Origin: Tardiphaga sp. 709
Lineage (GTDB): Bacteria; Pseudomonadota; Alphaproteobacteria; Rhizobiales; Xanthobacteraceae
Assembly: GCF_032401055.1 (NCBI RefSeq)
Contig: NZ_CP135529.1
Coordinates: forward strand, 2,232,001 to 2,296,000
Direction: 5' to 3'
Length of the DNA: 64,000 nt
Made by a program: the position numbers and the translations under genes
In this document: in pieces, positions 10,873 through 17,329 of the stretch
Layout: the number at the start of each line of letters is the position of its first letter
How positions within the stretch are numbered: position 1 is the stretch's first letter
Notes under the pieces: model-generated
Seen by the model: only the letters and a program-made list of their open reading frames with translations
What the model was told of the DNA's origin: nothing
The model's database searches: none

Positions 10873-13800
10873 GTGGACGCAGTTAGCCCGAGGATTAATC
10901 TTTCGCTTTTGGGCCGTTTCGTCCTGACTGGGCCCGATGGCGTAATAAGCCTGCCGAACAAAAAGCTCGCTGCACTGCTGAGTTATCTGGGCTGTACGGG
11001 GCCTGTGCCTCAGCCGCGCGAGCGGCTCTCGACGCTCCTATGGGGCTCCCACTTCGACGCCCAGGCCCGGCAGAACCTGCGGCAGGCCCTTTTCAAGCTT
11101 CGTCAGGTTATCGGCTCGGACGCCATCAACAGCGATGGCGAGTTCGTATGCCTGAATCCAACCGTGGTGTCGTGCGATGTCGGCCGGTTCGAGGCACTGA
11201 TCCGGGATGGTGGCCACGATGCGATGCATACGGCGGCAAATCTCTACCGGGGTCCATTTGTGGATGACATTATCGGTGTCAGCGAAGAGAGCTGGAGCGA
11301 GTGGCTAGCCGGCGAACGCGAGCGGCTCCAGGAACTAGCTTTGAACGCACTGGTCAGCATCGGCGGGCAAGAGTTGACCGCCGGCCGTATCGACCAAGCC
11401 TTGCAGGCTGGCCAACGAGCCCACGCTCTCAACAACATGCGGGAAGACGTCCACCGTTTAATCATGCAGGCGCTCGTCGCCAAGGGCCGTAGAACCGAAG
11501 CGCTGACGTATTATCTAGATATCGTTTCGATGTTGAAGCGCGAGCTCAGCACCGAGCCAGATGCTGCAACGCGGGCGCTCGCCTCAGAAATCCGAAGCGG
11601 TGGAGCGGCCGACACGCCAGAGGCGCACGGCTTCGAGCTGCAGCATGCCGGGCCTGCCGTCGCTGAAGCATTTCCCACGTCTACCTACGCGGCAACTGCG
11701 GCGAACGTCGATGATCTCGAACAACGCCAGTTGACGATACTTGTCTGCAAATTGGTCGGCTCGCTTTCCGATCGGCTCGATGCGGAAGATGTCCATGATC
11801 TGATCACGGCATTCCACAGGATGATCGCAGAAATAGTCGCGCAGTTCGACGGATTCGCCGCGCATTATGAAAGCAGCGGCGCACTCATCTATTTCGGGTA
11901 TCCCGCTGCGCGTGAGCATGACGCCGAGCAAGCGGTTCGCGCTGGTCGTGCCCTTCTAGATGCCGTCAGCACCTTAAAAACCTCCTTCGGCACCGCGCTT
12001 CAGGCCAGTGCCGGAATTGCTTCCGGGCTCGTAGTTGTGGGCAAATGGCGGGGGGCCGGCAATATGCAGCAGCGGGTTGCGATCGGAGATACGTCGGACA
12101 TGGCGACGCGGCTGCAAGCCGCCGCAGTGCCCGGTGAAGCGTTGATTGCCGCCAGCACGCGGCGGCTGGTGGGGCAGATGTTCGACTGCCGCGCACGCGA
12201 TCCCATCGAGGTGAAGGGGCTGCCGCAACCGGTGGAAGCGTGGCAGGTGCGCGGCGAGACGGCCGGCGTCAGCCGGTTCGAGGCCAGGCGCGCGGGTAAG
12301 CTCACCCCGCTCGTTGGACGGCGGGAAGAAATCGAACGGCTGTTGCGCCGCTGGGATCAGGCCAAGCTCGGCGAGGGTCAGGTCGTGCTGCTCTCCGGCG
12401 AGCCCGGTATCGGCAAATCGCGCATTGCCGAAAGCCTGCTGCGCAGTCTCGACGACGAGCCGCATACCCGCATTCGCTATTTCTGCTCGCCCCACCACGC
12501 GCAGAGCGCGCTCCACCCGTTCATCGCGCAGCTGGAACAGGCCGCGGGATTCGAGCCGAGCAGCGACTTCAGCGCGAAGCTCGAGAAATTGGAGGCCCTG
12601 CTAAAGCCGACGGCGAAAAATCTGCCGCGCGACATGGCGCTGATCGCCGAGTTGCTGACGCTGCCGACGGATGGACGCTATCCGGCATTGGCGGTCAGTC
12701 CGCAGCAGAAGCGAGAGATGACACTCGCGGCACTGCTCGACCAGCTCGACGGCCTGGCAGCGAAGAGCCCCATCCTGGTCGTGTTCGAGGATGTCCACTG
12801 GATCGATCCAACTTCACTCGACCTGCTCGATCGACTGGTCGCGCGCGCCGCTAACCTGCCGGTGTTGCTGGCCGTCACGTTCCGGCCGGAACTCGAACCA
12901 ACCTGGGTCGGTCAGCCGCATGTTACGATGCTGCTCTTGAGCCGACTTGGACGTCATGACAGCGCCGCCATCATTGGTGGCGTCACCAAGGACAAGCCGC
13001 TGCCTGACGTCGTCACCGATCAGATCCTTGCGCATACGGATGGCGTACCACTGTTCATCGAGGAATTGACGCGCACGCTGCTCGATAGCAGATTGTTGCG
13101 CGAGACGACGGACCGCTACGTGCTCGATGGACCGCTGCCGCCACTCGCGATCCCAACCACGCTGCAAGCTTCGTTGGTCGCCCGCCTCGACCGGCTTGGC
13201 ACGGTCAAGCATGTGGCGCAGATCGGCGCCGCGATCGGACGGGAGTTCTCCCACGAGCTGATTGCCGCGGTGTCCGCCATGCCCCCGATGGACCTCCACG
13301 CGGCACTGGAACGGCTGACGGCGTCCGGCCTCATCTCCCGACGCGGAACGTCGGCGGACGCGACTTACGCGTTCAAACATGCGCTGGTCCAGGACGCCGC
13401 CTATATCACGATGCTCAGGAGCCGGCGGCGACAGTTGCATGCAGACATCGCCAATGTTCTGGTCGAGCGGCTTGCGGCGACGGTAGAACGCCTGCCCGAG
13501 GTGGTCGCCCACCATTTCACCGAGGCCGGGCTTGCTAGTGAGGCGATCGACTTTTGGCTCAAGGCGGGTCGGCTTGCCCATGTGCGATGGGCGCTCCGCG
13601 AAGCTGTCGAATTCTTCGAACGGGCGCTGGAGGTTCTCGCGACACTGCCGGAGAGTCGGTCGACGCTCGAGCAAGGCTTCGATATCCGACTCGACTTGCG
13701 TCAGTTGCTAGTCCGGCTCGGCGAAGTCGGGCGGGCGCTGGAACGCCTGCGTGAAGCGGGGACCCTCGCCGAGCGGATGAACGACGACGGCCGACGCGGC

Positions 13801-14838
13801 CGGGTCTGCGCCGTCATGACAAGTATGCACGGTGGGCTCGGCGAGCTGGAAGACGGGCTTGCGTCCGGCGCTCGCGCGCTGGAGATCGCGGGGCGCCTCG
13901 GGGACCTCAGGCTTCGCATCCTTGCCACAAGTTTTCTCTCGCAGGTACGCTTCTTCCGCGGCGATCATGCCCGGGTGGTGGACCTGACCACCGACAATCT
14001 TTCCGCTCTGCCTACCGGTTGGGCCTTGGAGAATTTCGGAATCGCTGCTCCGCCATCGGTTCACGACCGTGGCTACCTGATCATGAGCCTGGCGGAACTA
14101 GGCCGCTTCGCCGAAGCGGCCGGGCCTGCAGCCGAAGCGATCCGGCTCGTCGCACCGCTGCTGGATGCCTACGCCGTCGGATGGGCTCACCTTACCGATG
14201 GGACGGTCCACCTGCTGCGGGGCGAGTGGGCACAGGCGCGCCCAGGTTTTGAGCGTGCAATGGCGGTGATTAGGGCAGGAAATCTCCCTCTCCTGCTTTC
14301 CCTGTCGGTCGCCTTCTCCGCCTGGAACATGGCGCAGCTTGGCGACGCCAGCGAGGCACTGAGCCGGCTTCAGGAAGGTGAGCAACTCGTCGAGCGTCAG
14401 GTCGCGACCGGATATGTCGGGAATCTCGGATGGCTCTATCCGTGGCTAGGTCGGACAGCGCTGTTGCTGGGGCGTCTCGGCGACGCGCAGCGGCTCGGCA
14501 CCCGCGCACTGGAAGCCTCGCTGCACCAGGCCGGGTTCGCGGCTCATGCGCTGCATCTTCTCGGCGAGGTTGCGACCCACCCCGATCGGTTCGATGCCGA
14601 GCGCGGCGAGACCCATTTTCGCCGGGCGCTGGTACTCGCCGAAACGCGCGGCATGCGTCCGTTGGTCGCCCACTGCAAGTTCGGCCTCGGCAAGCTTTAC
14701 CGGCGTAGCGGCCCCCACGCGCACGCGCAGAAGTATTTCACCAGCGCGGCCGCACTGTACCGCACGATGGACATGCCGTTCTGGCTTCAGGAGACGGAGG
14801 CCGAGATGCAAAGCGACATTCGTCGCAGCGCCTCTTAA
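10873..14838 (+). CDS. BTAD / degenerate nucleotide cyclase / AAA ATPase / TPR regulator
   Basis: 1321 residues, GTG start. Domain order: an N-terminal winged helix plus bacterial transcriptional activation domain (about 1-240, LSLLGRFVLTGPDGVI, LRQALFKLRQVIG); a class III cyclase-like domain (about 280-465, RQLTILVCKLVGSLSDRLD ... IEVKGLPQPVEAW); a STAND-type AAA ATPase with Walker A GEPGIGKS near residue 510 and Walker B LVVFEDVHWID; then TPR-like helical repeats to the end. In active cyclases the first segment has a metal-binding Asp and the second a GD pair. Here these positions read VCKLVGS and ESSGALIYFGYP, so both metal ligands appear lost. The domain is more likely a sensor or dimerisation module. 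Expected to be an ATP-driven transcription factor; the divergent autotransporter is the obvious candidate target. Confidence 0.88.
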   Translation: MDAVSPRINLSLLGRFVLTGPDGVISLPNKKLAALLSYLGCTGPVPQPRERLSTLLWGSHFDAQARQNLRQALFKLRQVIGSDAINSDGEFVCLNPTVVSCDVGRFEALIRDGGHDAMHTAANLYRGPFVDDIIGVSEESWSEWLAGERERLQELALNALVSIGGQELTAGRIDQALQAGQRAHALNNMREDVHRLIMQALVAKGRRTEALTYYLDIVSMLKRELSTEPDAATRALASEIRSGGAADTPEAHGFELQHAGPAVAEAFPTSTYAATAANVDDLEQRQLTILVCKLVGSLSDRLDAEDVHDLITAFHRMIAEIVAQFDGFAAHYESSGALIYFGYPAAREHDAEQAVRAGRALLDAVSTLKTSFGTALQASAGIASGLVVVGKWRGAGNMQQRVAIGDTSDMATRLQAAAVPGEALIAASTRRLVGQMFDCRARDPIEVKGLPQPVEAWQVRGETAGVSRFEARRAGKLTPLVGRREEIERLLRRWDQAKLGEGQVVLLSGEPGIGKSRIAESLLRSLDDEPHTRIRYFCSPHHAQSALHPFIAQLEQAAGFEPSSDFSAKLEKLEALLKPTAKNLPRDMALIAELLTLPTDGRYPALAVSPQQKREMTLAALLDQLDGLAAKSPILVVFEDVHWIDPTSLDLLDRLVARAANLPVLLAVTFRPELEPTWVGQPHVTMLLLSRLGRHDSAAIIGGVTKDKPLPDVVTDQILAHTDGVPLFIEELTRTLLDSRLLRETTDRYVLDGPLPPLAIPTTLQASLVARLDRLGTVKHVAQIGAAIGREFSHELIAAVSAMPPMDLHAALERLTASGLISRRGTSADATYAFKHALVQDAAYITMLRSRRRQLHADIANVLVERLAATVERLPEVVAHHFTEAGLASEAIDFWLKAGRLAHVRWALREAVEFFERALEVLATLPESRSTLEQGFDIRLDLRQLLVRLGEVGRALERLREAGTLAERMNDDGRRGRVCAVMTSMHGGLGELEDGLASGARALEIAGRLGDLRLRILATSFLSQVRFFRGDHARVVDLTTDNLSALPTGWALENFGIAAPPSVHDRGYLIMSLAELGRFAEAAGPAAEAIRLVAPLLDAYAVGWAHLTDGTVHLLRGEWAQARPGFERAMAVIRAGNLPLLLSLSVAFSAWNMAQLGDASEALSRLQEGEQLVERQVATGYVGNLGWLYPWLGRTALLLGRLGDAQRLGTRALEASLHQAGFAAHALHLLGEVATHPDRFDAERGETHFRRALVLAETRGMRPLVAHCKFGLGKLYRRSGPHAHAQKYFTSAAALYRTMDMPFWLQETEAEMQSDIRRSAS

Positions 14839-15223: not shown

Positions 15224-15388
15224 TTATTTTGGATCTGACGCGCCGCCGATTTCGTTGAGGAGTGCCATTTCGAGCAGCTTCACGGTCATAGGATTGCCGA
15301 CCAATCGGGCGATCGGTATGAGGGCCACCAGTCCATCGACGAGTTCGTCGTGATCCTTTGGGGGCTCTGGTTTGGATTCTTCTGTCAC
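15224..15388 (-). CDS. 54-residue protein directly behind luxI
   Basis: A GTG at 15386-15388 follows the luxI stop (15389-15391) with no spacing, and the frame closes with TAA at 15224-15226. The product is VTEESKPEPPKDHDELVDGL, then a hydrophobic-amphipathic helix (VALIPIARLVGNPMTVKLL) and EMALLNEIGGASDPK. It has an acidic, Pro-rich start and one amphipathic helix, and no cysteine or membrane span. Codon use is normal for the region. The abutting position means translation is almost certainly coupled to the synthase gene. It might modulate signal synthesis or reception, but that is inference; the family is not recognised. Confidence 0.6.
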   Translation of the reverse strand: MTEESKPEPPKDHDELVDGLVALIPIARLVGNPMTVKLLEMALLNEIGGASDPK

Positions 15389-16009
15389 TTAAGCGCTCTT
15401 CCGTATCATCGGAACGCGAGTGTCCTCCATGACTGAATGAGTCACGCCCGTGCGAGCACGTATCTTGTTGAGGGCTGGTTCACTCGTGTCGAACATGACC
15501 GCGATCGTCGCATCGCCGTCGATCTGATGAACAGAACCCAAGGGGTTCAACTGATATCCCATCTTCTGGACGAGCGACATGCGGAGTGCCCGGACGACGG
15601 CAGTCACATTGAGGATATCGCGGGCAATGCAAAACTCCTGCACTCCGATGAGAAGCTCATGATAGGTTTCGCCGCCGCGTCTTCCCGGCTTGATGGCGAG
15701 CCGTGTCATCTCGATGACCTGTTCCGAGCTTGGCACGGGCCCATCGACCAGATAGGCGAACTGTTCGCTGAGCATGTGGGGCAGCGCCGTCGGATAAAGC
15801 CTGAGGCAACCGATGACGTCATGCTGATCATCGAGCGAGGCGAGGTAGATGGCATGGTCGTCGTCGTATTGGTCCTGCTCATAAATGCCGTCTTTCTCAA
15901 ATTCTTGCCATCCCCGTTCCTTCACGAAACAGGCGTGTCTTAGCTTGAAGACTTGATCGAGCGTAGGAGCGAACATTGCGCTGTTCGATTGGTCGATGAC
16001 CCTGATCAT
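15389..16009 (-). CDS. acyl-homoserine-lactone synthase (LuxI family)
   Basis: 206 residues from the ATG at 16009, set by AGGAGG just upstream. The enzyme joins S-adenosylmethionine to an acyl group to make a diffusible quorum signal. Family residues are in place: Arg, Phe and Trp of LRHACFVKERGW, the acidic residues of DQYDDDHAIYL, Arg of GCLRLYPT, and Glu/Arg of VIEMTRLAI. The signal's acyl chain cannot be read from sequence; relatives in Bradyrhizobium and Rhodopseudomonas use branched-chain or aryl CoA donors. The LuxR receptor gene lies 76 bp upstream on the same strand. The leader between them folds into a hairpin that covers the Shine-Dalgarno (separate entry). Confidence 0.92.
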   Translation of the reverse strand: MIRVIDQSNSAMFAPTLDQVFKLRHACFVKERGWQEFEKDGIYEQDQYDDDHAIYLASLDDQHDVIGCLRLYPTALPHMLSEQFAYLVDGPVPSSEQVIEMTRLAIKPGRRGGETYHELLIGVQEFCIARDILNVTAVVRALRMSLVQKMGYQLNPLGSVHQIDGDATIAVMFDTSEPALNKIRARTGVTHSVMEDTRVPMIRKSA

Positions 16010-16010
16010 G

Positions 16011-16057
16011 CCGCCTCCTGCCGTGAACCCACGGCGGAGTGTCACGACAGGAGGCGG
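16011..16057 (-). promoter_or_regulatory. luxI leader hairpin occluding the Shine-Dalgarno
   Basis: Two 15-base arms, CCGCCTCCTGCCGTG at 16011-16025 and CACGACAGGAGGCGG at 16043-16057 on the plus strand, are inverted repeats with 14 of 15 positions paired and a 17-base loop. In the luxI mRNA the 3' arm contains AGGAGG, the ribosome binding site, and lies one base before the ATG. The 5' arm contains the matching CCUCCU. The folded transcript would hide the start site. It could act as an RNA thermometer, a translational-coupling switch or a protein-binding element. A classical lux box (about 20 bp with little or no spacer) is a poorer fit. Confidence 0.75.
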
Positions 16058-16085
16058 TCACAGAATCGCTCAGGAGAGGGATTGA

Positions 16086-16793
16086 CTAGGGATGGATCTC
16101 GCCGCGCCGGATCGATTCGACGACGGCCTGGGTCTTGGAACAGACACCCAGCTTTGAAAGCACCGAGGAAATGTGTGACTTAACGGTTTGCTCAGAGATA
16201 TGAAGGATCTCGCCGGTGTCCCAGGCCGATTTTCCGACGGCGGCCCATCTCATCACTTCGCGCTCCCGGGGCGTCAACGTGAATGTCCGGGATTCAGACC
16301 TGAGTTTGAGGTTCGCCTTGTAGAGATAGAGGGCCATCATTTCGACGGCCCGGCGACCTTCCTTGCTCTCGTCGACAGCGTGACCGGCAAGAGATACGGT
16401 CGCCTGATAACCGCTGGTGCCCTGGATGGGGACGCATATGCCGCTCCGCAGGCCGTGCTCAATCGCGGAAATCTCAAGAACCCGGCCACCTCTTTGATCG
16501 AGCACCGGTGCGTCATGCCATCCAAAGGCATTGAAGCTCTTCCGGGCATAGTTCGCGACAGGATCAACTAGGATCAAGTTCTCGCGGTGATACTGTAACC
16601 GCCAAGCGCGCGGCCAATGATCCAGGATGAACATCTTGTCGAAGGCGGTCGGCTGGATACGAGAAGAAACAACCATAAAGGAGTCGTAGCCGAATTGCCG
16701 GACGGCCGCCGCAAAGGTATCGCGCAGGGACACCTCAGTTTTGGCTTTGTCCAGAAGTTCGAACGCAGAGAATATAGCGTCGAAACGTCCCAC
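16086..16793 (-). CDS. LuxR-family quorum-sensing receptor
   Basis: 235 residues, GTG start at 16793. The N-terminal autoinducer-binding domain (about 15-160) keeps the signature residues of the family: W..(R)..Y in DHWPRAWRLQYHREN, the DP pair in LVDPVANY, and Trp in FGWHDA. The C-terminal helix-turn-helix (about 172-230) reads LTPREREVMRWAAVGKSAWD and SEQTVKSHISSVLSKLGV. It binds an acyl-homoserine lactone and regulates transcription, presumably including luxI 76 bp downstream. The tandem luxR-luxI order suggests read-through transcription, with the leader hairpin as the point at which luxI is set separately. Confidence 0.92.
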   Translation of the reverse strand: MGRFDAIFSAFELLDKAKTEVSLRDTFAAAVRQFGYDSFMVVSSRIQPTAFDKMFILDHWPRAWRLQYHRENLILVDPVANYARKSFNAFGWHDAPVLDQRGGRVLEISAIEHGLRSGICVPIQGTSGYQATVSLAGHAVDESKEGRRAVEMMALYLYKANLKLRSESRTFTLTPREREVMRWAAVGKSAWDTGEILHISEQTVKSHISSVLSKLGVCSKTQAVVESIRRGEIHP

Positions 16794-16918
16794 GTGAGCC
16801 TGTGCCTAACCAAACGGAATACAAGCAATTGATTGGCTCATTGTAGCGGATCGACTTGAACGTTGTGTCGCAGCCATGCTCATATCCACTTCTTTTAAGT
16901 CCATCTGGCGGAGCCCAA

Positions 16919-17329
16919 ATGCAACCAAGGCATGCCAATGAAGTCGATGTCCATATTGGGAAGCGCCTCAAGATGCGCCGCCTGATCATGAACATGAGCC
17001 AAGAAGCGCTCGCAAATGAAATCGGGTTGACGTTTCAGCAGGTGCAAAAATACGAAAAAGGCGCGAATCGGATCAGTGCCGGCCGCATGCAGCAGATCGC
17101 CGCTATCCTGAAAGTACCGGTTACCTTTCTGTATGATGGACTTTAACATAAGGGCGGGGCTGTTTCCGAGGTTGGGATCGACGTTATCGAGCAGTTCCTG
17201 TCCACCAAGGACGGGCTGGCGCTCATTACGGCGTTTTCGCAAGTCGAGGACAGGAAGCTCCGCCAGAGTATCGTGGACTTGGTGAAGACCATCGTGGCAG
17301 AGCACAAGCCAAAGAAAAAGCGCAGCTGA
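16919..17329 (+). pseudogene. XRE-family regulator interrupted by an in-frame TAA
   Basis: From the ATG at 16919 (GGAG upstream) the product starts MQPRHANEVDVHIGKRLKMR and contains a lambda-Cro-type helix-turn-helix (MSQEALANEIGLTFQQVQKY, then AGRMQQIAAILKVPVTFLYD). TAA at 17144-17146 ends it at 75 residues. The same frame then continues unbroken for 60 codons (HKGGAVSEVGIDVIEQFLST, DGLALITAFSQVEDRKLRQS, IVDLVKTIVAEHKPKKKRS) to TGA at 17327. This matches the C-terminal half of the usual 130-140-residue rhizobial XRE regulators. The truncated form keeps the whole DNA-binding domain and might still be functional. It is divergent from luxR, separated by 125 bp. Confidence 0.7.

Follow-up and report, generated by a model that had tools for sequence, protein, structure and literature searches.

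The hairpin in front of luxI

Why does the gene for a quorum-sensing signal synthase begin behind a ribosome-binding site that is folded away, and in which RNA would such a fold act? The question arises from a luxR-luxI pair on the minus strand of the 64-kb stretch of DNA analysed here, which we call the window. The upstream gene, luxR (16086..16793), encodes an autoinducer-binding regulator of 235 aa with the Pfam domains Autoind_bind and GerE, and luxI (15389..16009) encodes an acyl-homoserine-lactone (AHL) synthase of 206 aa (Pfam Autoind_synth). A preliminary description of the sequence gave 76 bp between the two genes, which is correct by the coordinates of the luxR stop codon (16088-16086) and the luxI ATG (16009-16007). 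This luxI start is backed by homology, the alignments of the best relatives beginning at residue 1. No close orthologue of the gene is present among 391 genomes of its own family, and the closest relative found there shares 54% identity.

The preliminary description had also proposed a leader hairpin at 16011..16057, and both the sequence and the RNA folds bear it out. The 5′ arm, CCGCCTCCTGTCGTG (16057-16043, minus strand), and the 3′ arm, CACGGCAGGAGGCGG (16025-16011, minus strand), enclose a 17-nt loop. Fourteen of the 15 positions form Watson-Crick pairs, as described, but the fifteenth, taken for a mismatch, is a U-G wobble, so that all 15 are paired in RNA; an inner A-U adds a sixteenth pair. 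The Shine-Dalgarno (SD) sequence AGGAGG (16014..16019, minus strand) does lie in the 3′ arm, but it is the arm that ends one base before the AUG, whereas AGGAGG stands four bases from it and not one. The 101-nt leader has a predicted folding energy of -48.5 kcal/mol (z = -4.6), a stability equalled in none of 200 shuffles, and among the 139 luxI leaders compared below it has both the longest SD helix and the lowest MFE. On these folds the window leader is an SD-sequestering hairpin, the SD being held in a stable predicted mRNA helix.

Within the 64-kb window, the luxI leader stem is the sole case with arms matching at 14 or more of 15 positions and a loop of 3-40 nt, and five mononucleotide shuffles of the window contain no such stem. 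The same criterion yields 27 merged sites, nine from a single stretch, in twenty 20-kb stretches of relatives (400 kb), and it is therefore the position of the window stem that counts. The 101-nt stretch has one match in its own genome. A search of the leader against Rfam returned no family at the gathering score; the four matches up to E 10 all lay far below it.

Pairing over the Shine-Dalgarno in related leaders

Our comparison covered 139 luxI leaders, 131 from the window's own family and eight from other families of the same order (L019, L020, L023, L024, L026, L029, L030 and L031). Searches supplied 79 loci (L002-L037 and L042-L084), and 60 further listed homologues were added, the first 40 by table order and then 20 for genus diversity; the leader was ignored in this choice, and homologues further down the table were left out. 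Removing leaders that were at least 70% alike left 80, or 72 for the own family alone. Twenty 20-kb stretches, taken from nine own-family genomes, supplied 290 ORF starts as controls. Where homology did not fix a start, an SD-based rule was used, the same as for the controls; a few of these starts look doubtful (e.g. L048, L024 and L062) yet were retained. Two luxI frames with an in-frame TGA, L079 and L080, were likewise kept; they are probably decaying copies, and luxR was not found upstream of either.

The loss of pairing in relatives, which the preliminary description had named as evidence against its hairpin, is not what we found. The letters of the homologous leaders differ, and most form a stem ahead of the ATG, with the SD inside its 3′ arm, so that the SD-masking structure is kept while the sequences vary. 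Predicted SD pairing has a median of 0.84 in luxI leaders against 0.60 at the control starts (p 9e-31 for all 139; one-sided p 1e-19 for the 80 non-redundant leaders), and the 72 non-redundant own-family leaders give the same median (p 1e-18). An unbroken helix of at least 8 pairs runs across the SD in 91/139 luxI leaders and 47/290 controls. A stem score of at least 7 is reached by 45 of the 80 non-redundant leaders (42 of 72 in the own family alone) compared with 26 of 290 controls, and a score of at least 6 by 68 of the 80. Gene arrangement does not account for the difference, since stems of at least 7 precede 34/62 tandem luxI genes and only 4/76 tandem control genes with a gap of 40-250 bp. 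The two further luxI genes of the window's own genome (L033 and L037) have SD helices of 8 pairs, with predicted pairing of 0.73 and 0.99, respectively.

Beyond this set we collected 63 out-of-family leaders (23 loci and 40 more), excluding two frames with stops (L178 and L179) and including one with a single stop (L192); 59 were non-redundant, 43 from other Alphaproteobacteria and 16 from elsewhere. The signal in the other Alphaproteobacteria is weaker than in the 139 leaders but present, with a median SD pairing of 0.74 against 0.50 in controls (p 6e-9) and stems of at least 7 in 17/43 leaders against 16/153 controls. The 16 non-alphaproteobacterial leaders have a median of 0.80 against 0.49 (p 0.015), but only 3/16 carry stems of at least 7 compared with 11/138 controls (p 0.15). 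Seven leaders from named records stood outside the counts: predicted SD pairing is 0.79 in Afipia carboxidovorans OM5, 0.62 in Nitrobacter hamburgensis X14, 0.70 in Tistrella mobilis, 0.73 in Methylorubrum extorquens AM1 (with its start taken two codons too far downstream), and 0.64, 0.63 and 0.69 in L038, L039 and L041.

A tandem luxR lies upstream of luxI in 102 of the 139 loci. We considered whether the hairpin is confined to such genes, and this idea failed: hairpins are equally frequent at luxI genes that lack a tandem luxR, 17 of 18 non-redundant ones having a stem of at least 6. In one clade (L009-L018 and L033), the helix is extended, and the start codon pairs with a conserved upstream CATGA.

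A palindrome kept as DNA should decay to G-U and A-C mismatches alike, and an excess of wobble pairs therefore marks selection on the sense RNA rather than on a DNA operator. In the stem search, G-U and A-C each counted as a mismatch. Inside the stems the ratio of G-U to A-C is 36:8 in the 80 non-redundant leaders, 34:8 in the 72 of the own family and 58:9 in all 139, compared with 38:37 for the control starts and 312:279 for sites chosen at random. The asymmetry survives correction for arm composition (p 2e-4). Positions flanking the stems show a weaker bias (G-U 33, A-C 23; p 0.23), and the stems of the other Alphaproteobacteria give small counts of 6 and 3.

Covariation was scored in 13 close relatives (11 distinct rows); the window's own leader, having no close orthologue, is excluded from this alignment, and other leader alignments were not used for counts because their stems do not share one register. 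In the 13 relatives, 93% of cells are paired, against 35-57% in slid registers. Five pairs are altered on both sides, a number reached by 14 of 500 shuffles, and the covariation score is reached by none of 500. The count of further pair types in this clean alignment carries no signal, as 367 of 500 shuffles reach it. The compensatory changes for which the preliminary description had proposed to search thus appear to occur, together with wobble changes, in relatives, and the hairpin looks to have been selected as sense-strand RNA. If so, RNA that contains both arms is probably made and matters.

A lux-box-like dyad and the expected transcript start

Upstream of the hairpin lies a lux-box-like dyad, AATCCCTCTCCTGAGCGATT (16064..16083, minus strand), with its axis about 64 nt before the luxI ATG and symmetry at 7/9 outer positions. 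Since 15% of random genomic sites also reach 7/9, the window dyad is not significant by itself. The dyad overlaps at its upstream edge with the motif GTCAAT, which aligns in 22 of 25 leaders of the subfamily. The dyad-symmetry profile of the leaders has two clear peaks. Counted from the ATG, the axes of one lie at about -64 to -69 and those of the other at about -16 to -21; outside them one lone position, -81, reaches 5%. The upstream peak can be read, from its symmetry, as a lux box; called in this way, lux boxes are present in 32/80 leaders against 15% of random sites. A perfect palindrome of 16 bp, which we take to be the RpaR box, is present in L136 and L138 (axes -76/-77 and -73/-74, respectively). 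Assuming a spacing of -48.5 for RpaR, the start of the L136 transcript would fall near -28, where the 5′ arm of its SD stem (-37 to -27) ends.

Two reports place the centre of the lux box at -42.5 from the transcription start (PMC3376562, PMC7585371). For the window, the lux-box axis plus 42.5 to 48.5 nt would put a LuxR-activated start at 16025..16031 (minus strand). With an offset of 42.5, the predicted start falls at a median of -23.5 in 27 loci, beyond the start of the 5′ arm in all 27, beyond its middle in 22 and beyond its end in 15; the window's own predicted start lies 11.5 nt beyond the end of the arm. In the set of 25 loci that have both elements, the median distance from the lux-box axis to the end of the 5′ arm is 42 nt, and at least half of the arm would remain untranscribed in 20, with under half lost in the other five. 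Cutting the transcripts at this point lowers predicted SD pairing from a median of 0.85 to 0.53, with a drop of more than 0.2 in 16/25 loci, and the window falls from 1.00 to 0.36. Averaged over the non-redundant leaders, SD pairing declines from 0.80 to 0.64 and then to 0.49 as the 5′ end moves from 100 nt to 30 nt and 23 nt upstream.

Random dyad-stem pairs (85) place their 5′-arm ends near 37 nt (IQR 26.5-44.5), a similar though broader distance, so that the spacing from lux box to arm is by itself weak evidence; axis and arm end are weakly correlated (rho 0.40, p 0.048). Both a lux box and a stem occur in 4/43 of the other alphaproteobacterial leaders. A sigma-70 consensus scan of 15950-16250 found no promoter, and term searches of the main texts of start-site papers on Bradyrhizobium, Methylorubrum and S. 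meliloti found no mention of the gene. A start called from the -10-like CATGA was dropped, since in one clade this motif is also the pairing partner of the start codon.

The preliminary description had regarded a luxI transcript that starts past the 5′ arm as counting against its hairpin. Such a transcript is what the lux-box geometry would predict for LuxR-activated RNA, and with it the hairpin would keep a role, as a silencer of read-through rather than as an inducible switch. A transcript that LuxR activated from the usual -42.5 could not include the complete 5′ arm; this and the selection on sense RNA both fit a hairpin that acts in RNA derived from upstream. We therefore propose, with a probability of about one half, that the hairpin is a conserved cis-acting RNA element which masks the luxI ribosome-binding site in RNA entering from upstream and leaves mRNA started by LuxR translatable. 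The 5′ arm would sit between the lux box and the expected LuxR-activated start. A transcript begun there would lack all or most of the arm and could be translated from a free ribosome-binding site, while read-through RNA, for example from luxR, would carry the entire hairpin and stay silent. Leaky transcription would thereby be kept from yielding signal and early positive feedback. As hairpins are just as frequent at luxI genes without a tandem luxR, read-through from luxR cannot be the whole reason for them, which weakens a version of the proposal built on luxR alone.

A wider form of this proposal is more tentative, and we hold it at somewhat less than even odds: many alphaproteobacterial luxI genes may carry a two-dyad unit, in which a lux box is followed about 47 bp downstream by an RNA element whose 5′ half is at the same time promoter DNA, so that only mRNA started by LuxR-AHL would be translatable and all other luxI transcription would be silent. 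Quorum circuits with positive feedback must curb leaky signal synthesis, and an RNA element keyed to the origin of the transcript would, if real, be a simple means of doing so. The choice of promoter would then decide whether luxI can be translated, and luxI promoters and reporter fusions in Alphaproteobacteria would have to be read differently, since fusions that lack luxR read-through or carry a cut leader would miss the silencing.

Alternatives, known systems and neighbouring genes

A different explanation, which we consider unlikely but by no means negligible, is that the main luxI transcript begins upstream of the 5′ arm and carries the hairpin, which a small RNA, a protein or an RNase would open or cleave in some conditions. 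Its occurrence at luxI genes without a tandem luxR would suit such an autonomous leader switch, and there are precedents. In Pseudomonas aeruginosa, where rhlI also lies downstream of a luxR-type gene, a stem-loop is predicted to occlude the ribosome-binding site in the rhlI 5′UTR, and RhlS activates rhlI translation (PMC6786874). However, a terminator 34 nt upstream of the start codon closes the rhlI leader, which gives rise to a 70-nt translation-activating sRNA (PMC6786874), whereas the window stem lies directly against the ATG, lacks a T-run and belongs to a structure that recurs across the family. The sinI 5′UTR of Sinorhizobium meliloti, a target of RNase E and the sRNA RcsR1, provides post-transcriptional control near the SD of an alphaproteobacterial luxI gene; it involves cleavage and a trans-acting sRNA, and the available text of the reports does not describe an SD hairpin (PMC5977203, PMC7143759). 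For half of the 25 loci, a leader switch would moreover need a start within about 35 nt downstream of the lux-box axis, closer than -42.5 allows. The hairpin sequences vary between subfamilies, so that no shared site for an opener is seen, and the window stem is predicted to be extremely stable. We therefore favour silencing of read-through RNA over an inducible leader switch.

Other origins of the structure are less probable still. It is improbable that the stem is a functionless by-product of a pyrimidine-rich start region opposite a purine-rich SD: several 5′ arms are CCTCC-like by eye, but the effect is missing from control starts whose SD match is 4 or better (stem of at least 7 in 16/191), and the wobble asymmetry persists after the arm-composition correction given above. 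We also think it very doubtful that the repeat is a second lux box, a DNA operator for LuxR. Symmetric changes in an operator would mimic covariation too, and over 35 loci the similarity of each box to its own hairpin is slightly raised (mean 5.26; other loci give 4.87, shuffled hairpins 4.81). Two lux box-like repeats are reported at -76 and -35 of rpaI in R. palustris GJ-22 (PMC10305029), the latter in the same place and layout as in L136. Although that repeat was termed lux box-like (PMC10305029), the wobble bias of our stems indicates RNA: G-U to A-C stands at 31:6 in 68 SD stems and at 4:21 in 43 lux-box dyads, our DNA yardstick from the non-redundant leaders, and wobbles matter in RNA only. 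The A-C surplus in the dyads may stem from a few inherited mismatches that are repeated. Furthermore, the repeat covers the SD, is variable in sequence and spans a 17-nt loop in the window.

Opening of the hairpin by ribosomes that translate luxR, as put forward in the preliminary description, would draw on the frequent tandem arrangement of the two genes; yet the luxR stop lies 28 nt ahead of the 5′ arm and hairpins occur where no tandem luxR exists, and such coupling seems very improbable to us. An intrinsic terminator or attenuator of luxR is highly improbable: a T-run follows the stem in a few relatives (L005, L010), but at least 4 T within 7 nt after the stem occur in just 1 of 68 non-redundant stems of at least 6, the window stem is directly followed by CATGATC, with no T-run, and a terminator scan found none. 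Hairpins that mask the SD are the usual form of RNA thermometers, and melting by heat was another suggestion of the preliminary description. It is exceedingly unlikely here, the predicted probability that the window SD is paired being 1.0 at 15-50 °C and still 0.999 at 60-70 °C. On the stable fold, the missing T-run, the 28-nt distance and the wobble contrast, we set aside thermometer, terminator, coupling and second lux box. What endures of the preliminary reading is thus an SD-masking RNA structure kept in relatives, and what falls away is its opening by heat or by luxR ribosomes.

Masking of read-through RNA has a counterpart in IS10-type elements, in which a fold-back hides the ribosome-binding site of the transposase in read-through RNA and leaves it open in the promoter's own transcript. 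The silencing proposed for luxI would resemble this in its open own-promoter transcript and masked outside transcripts; it would differ in that IS10 shields a transposon from outside transcription, whereas at luxI the hairpin would shield a feedback loop. Our literature search for luxI SD hairpins and read-through, in which subscription papers were mostly outside the scope, found no paper in which hairpins that mask the SD are described as a trait of alphaproteobacterial luxI leaders in general.

The luxR-luxI pair adjoins, on the opposite strand, a regulator of 1321 aa with BTAD, cyclase-like, AAA and TPR regions (10873-14838, plus strand), and 62 bp past the luxR start lies a divergent frame with a Cro/CI-type HTH (16856-17146, plus strand). 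Directly after the luxI stop, outside the hairpin, a small ORF of 54 aa is present (15224..15388, minus strand), for which searches of Pfam and NCBIfam returned no match. A similar frame with the motif MALLNE follows luxI in 14 of 78 other loci (L005-L007, L010-L018, L033 and L072; tblastn with the first 46 residues), and the ORF is a candidate for a small protein linked to this luxI subfamily.
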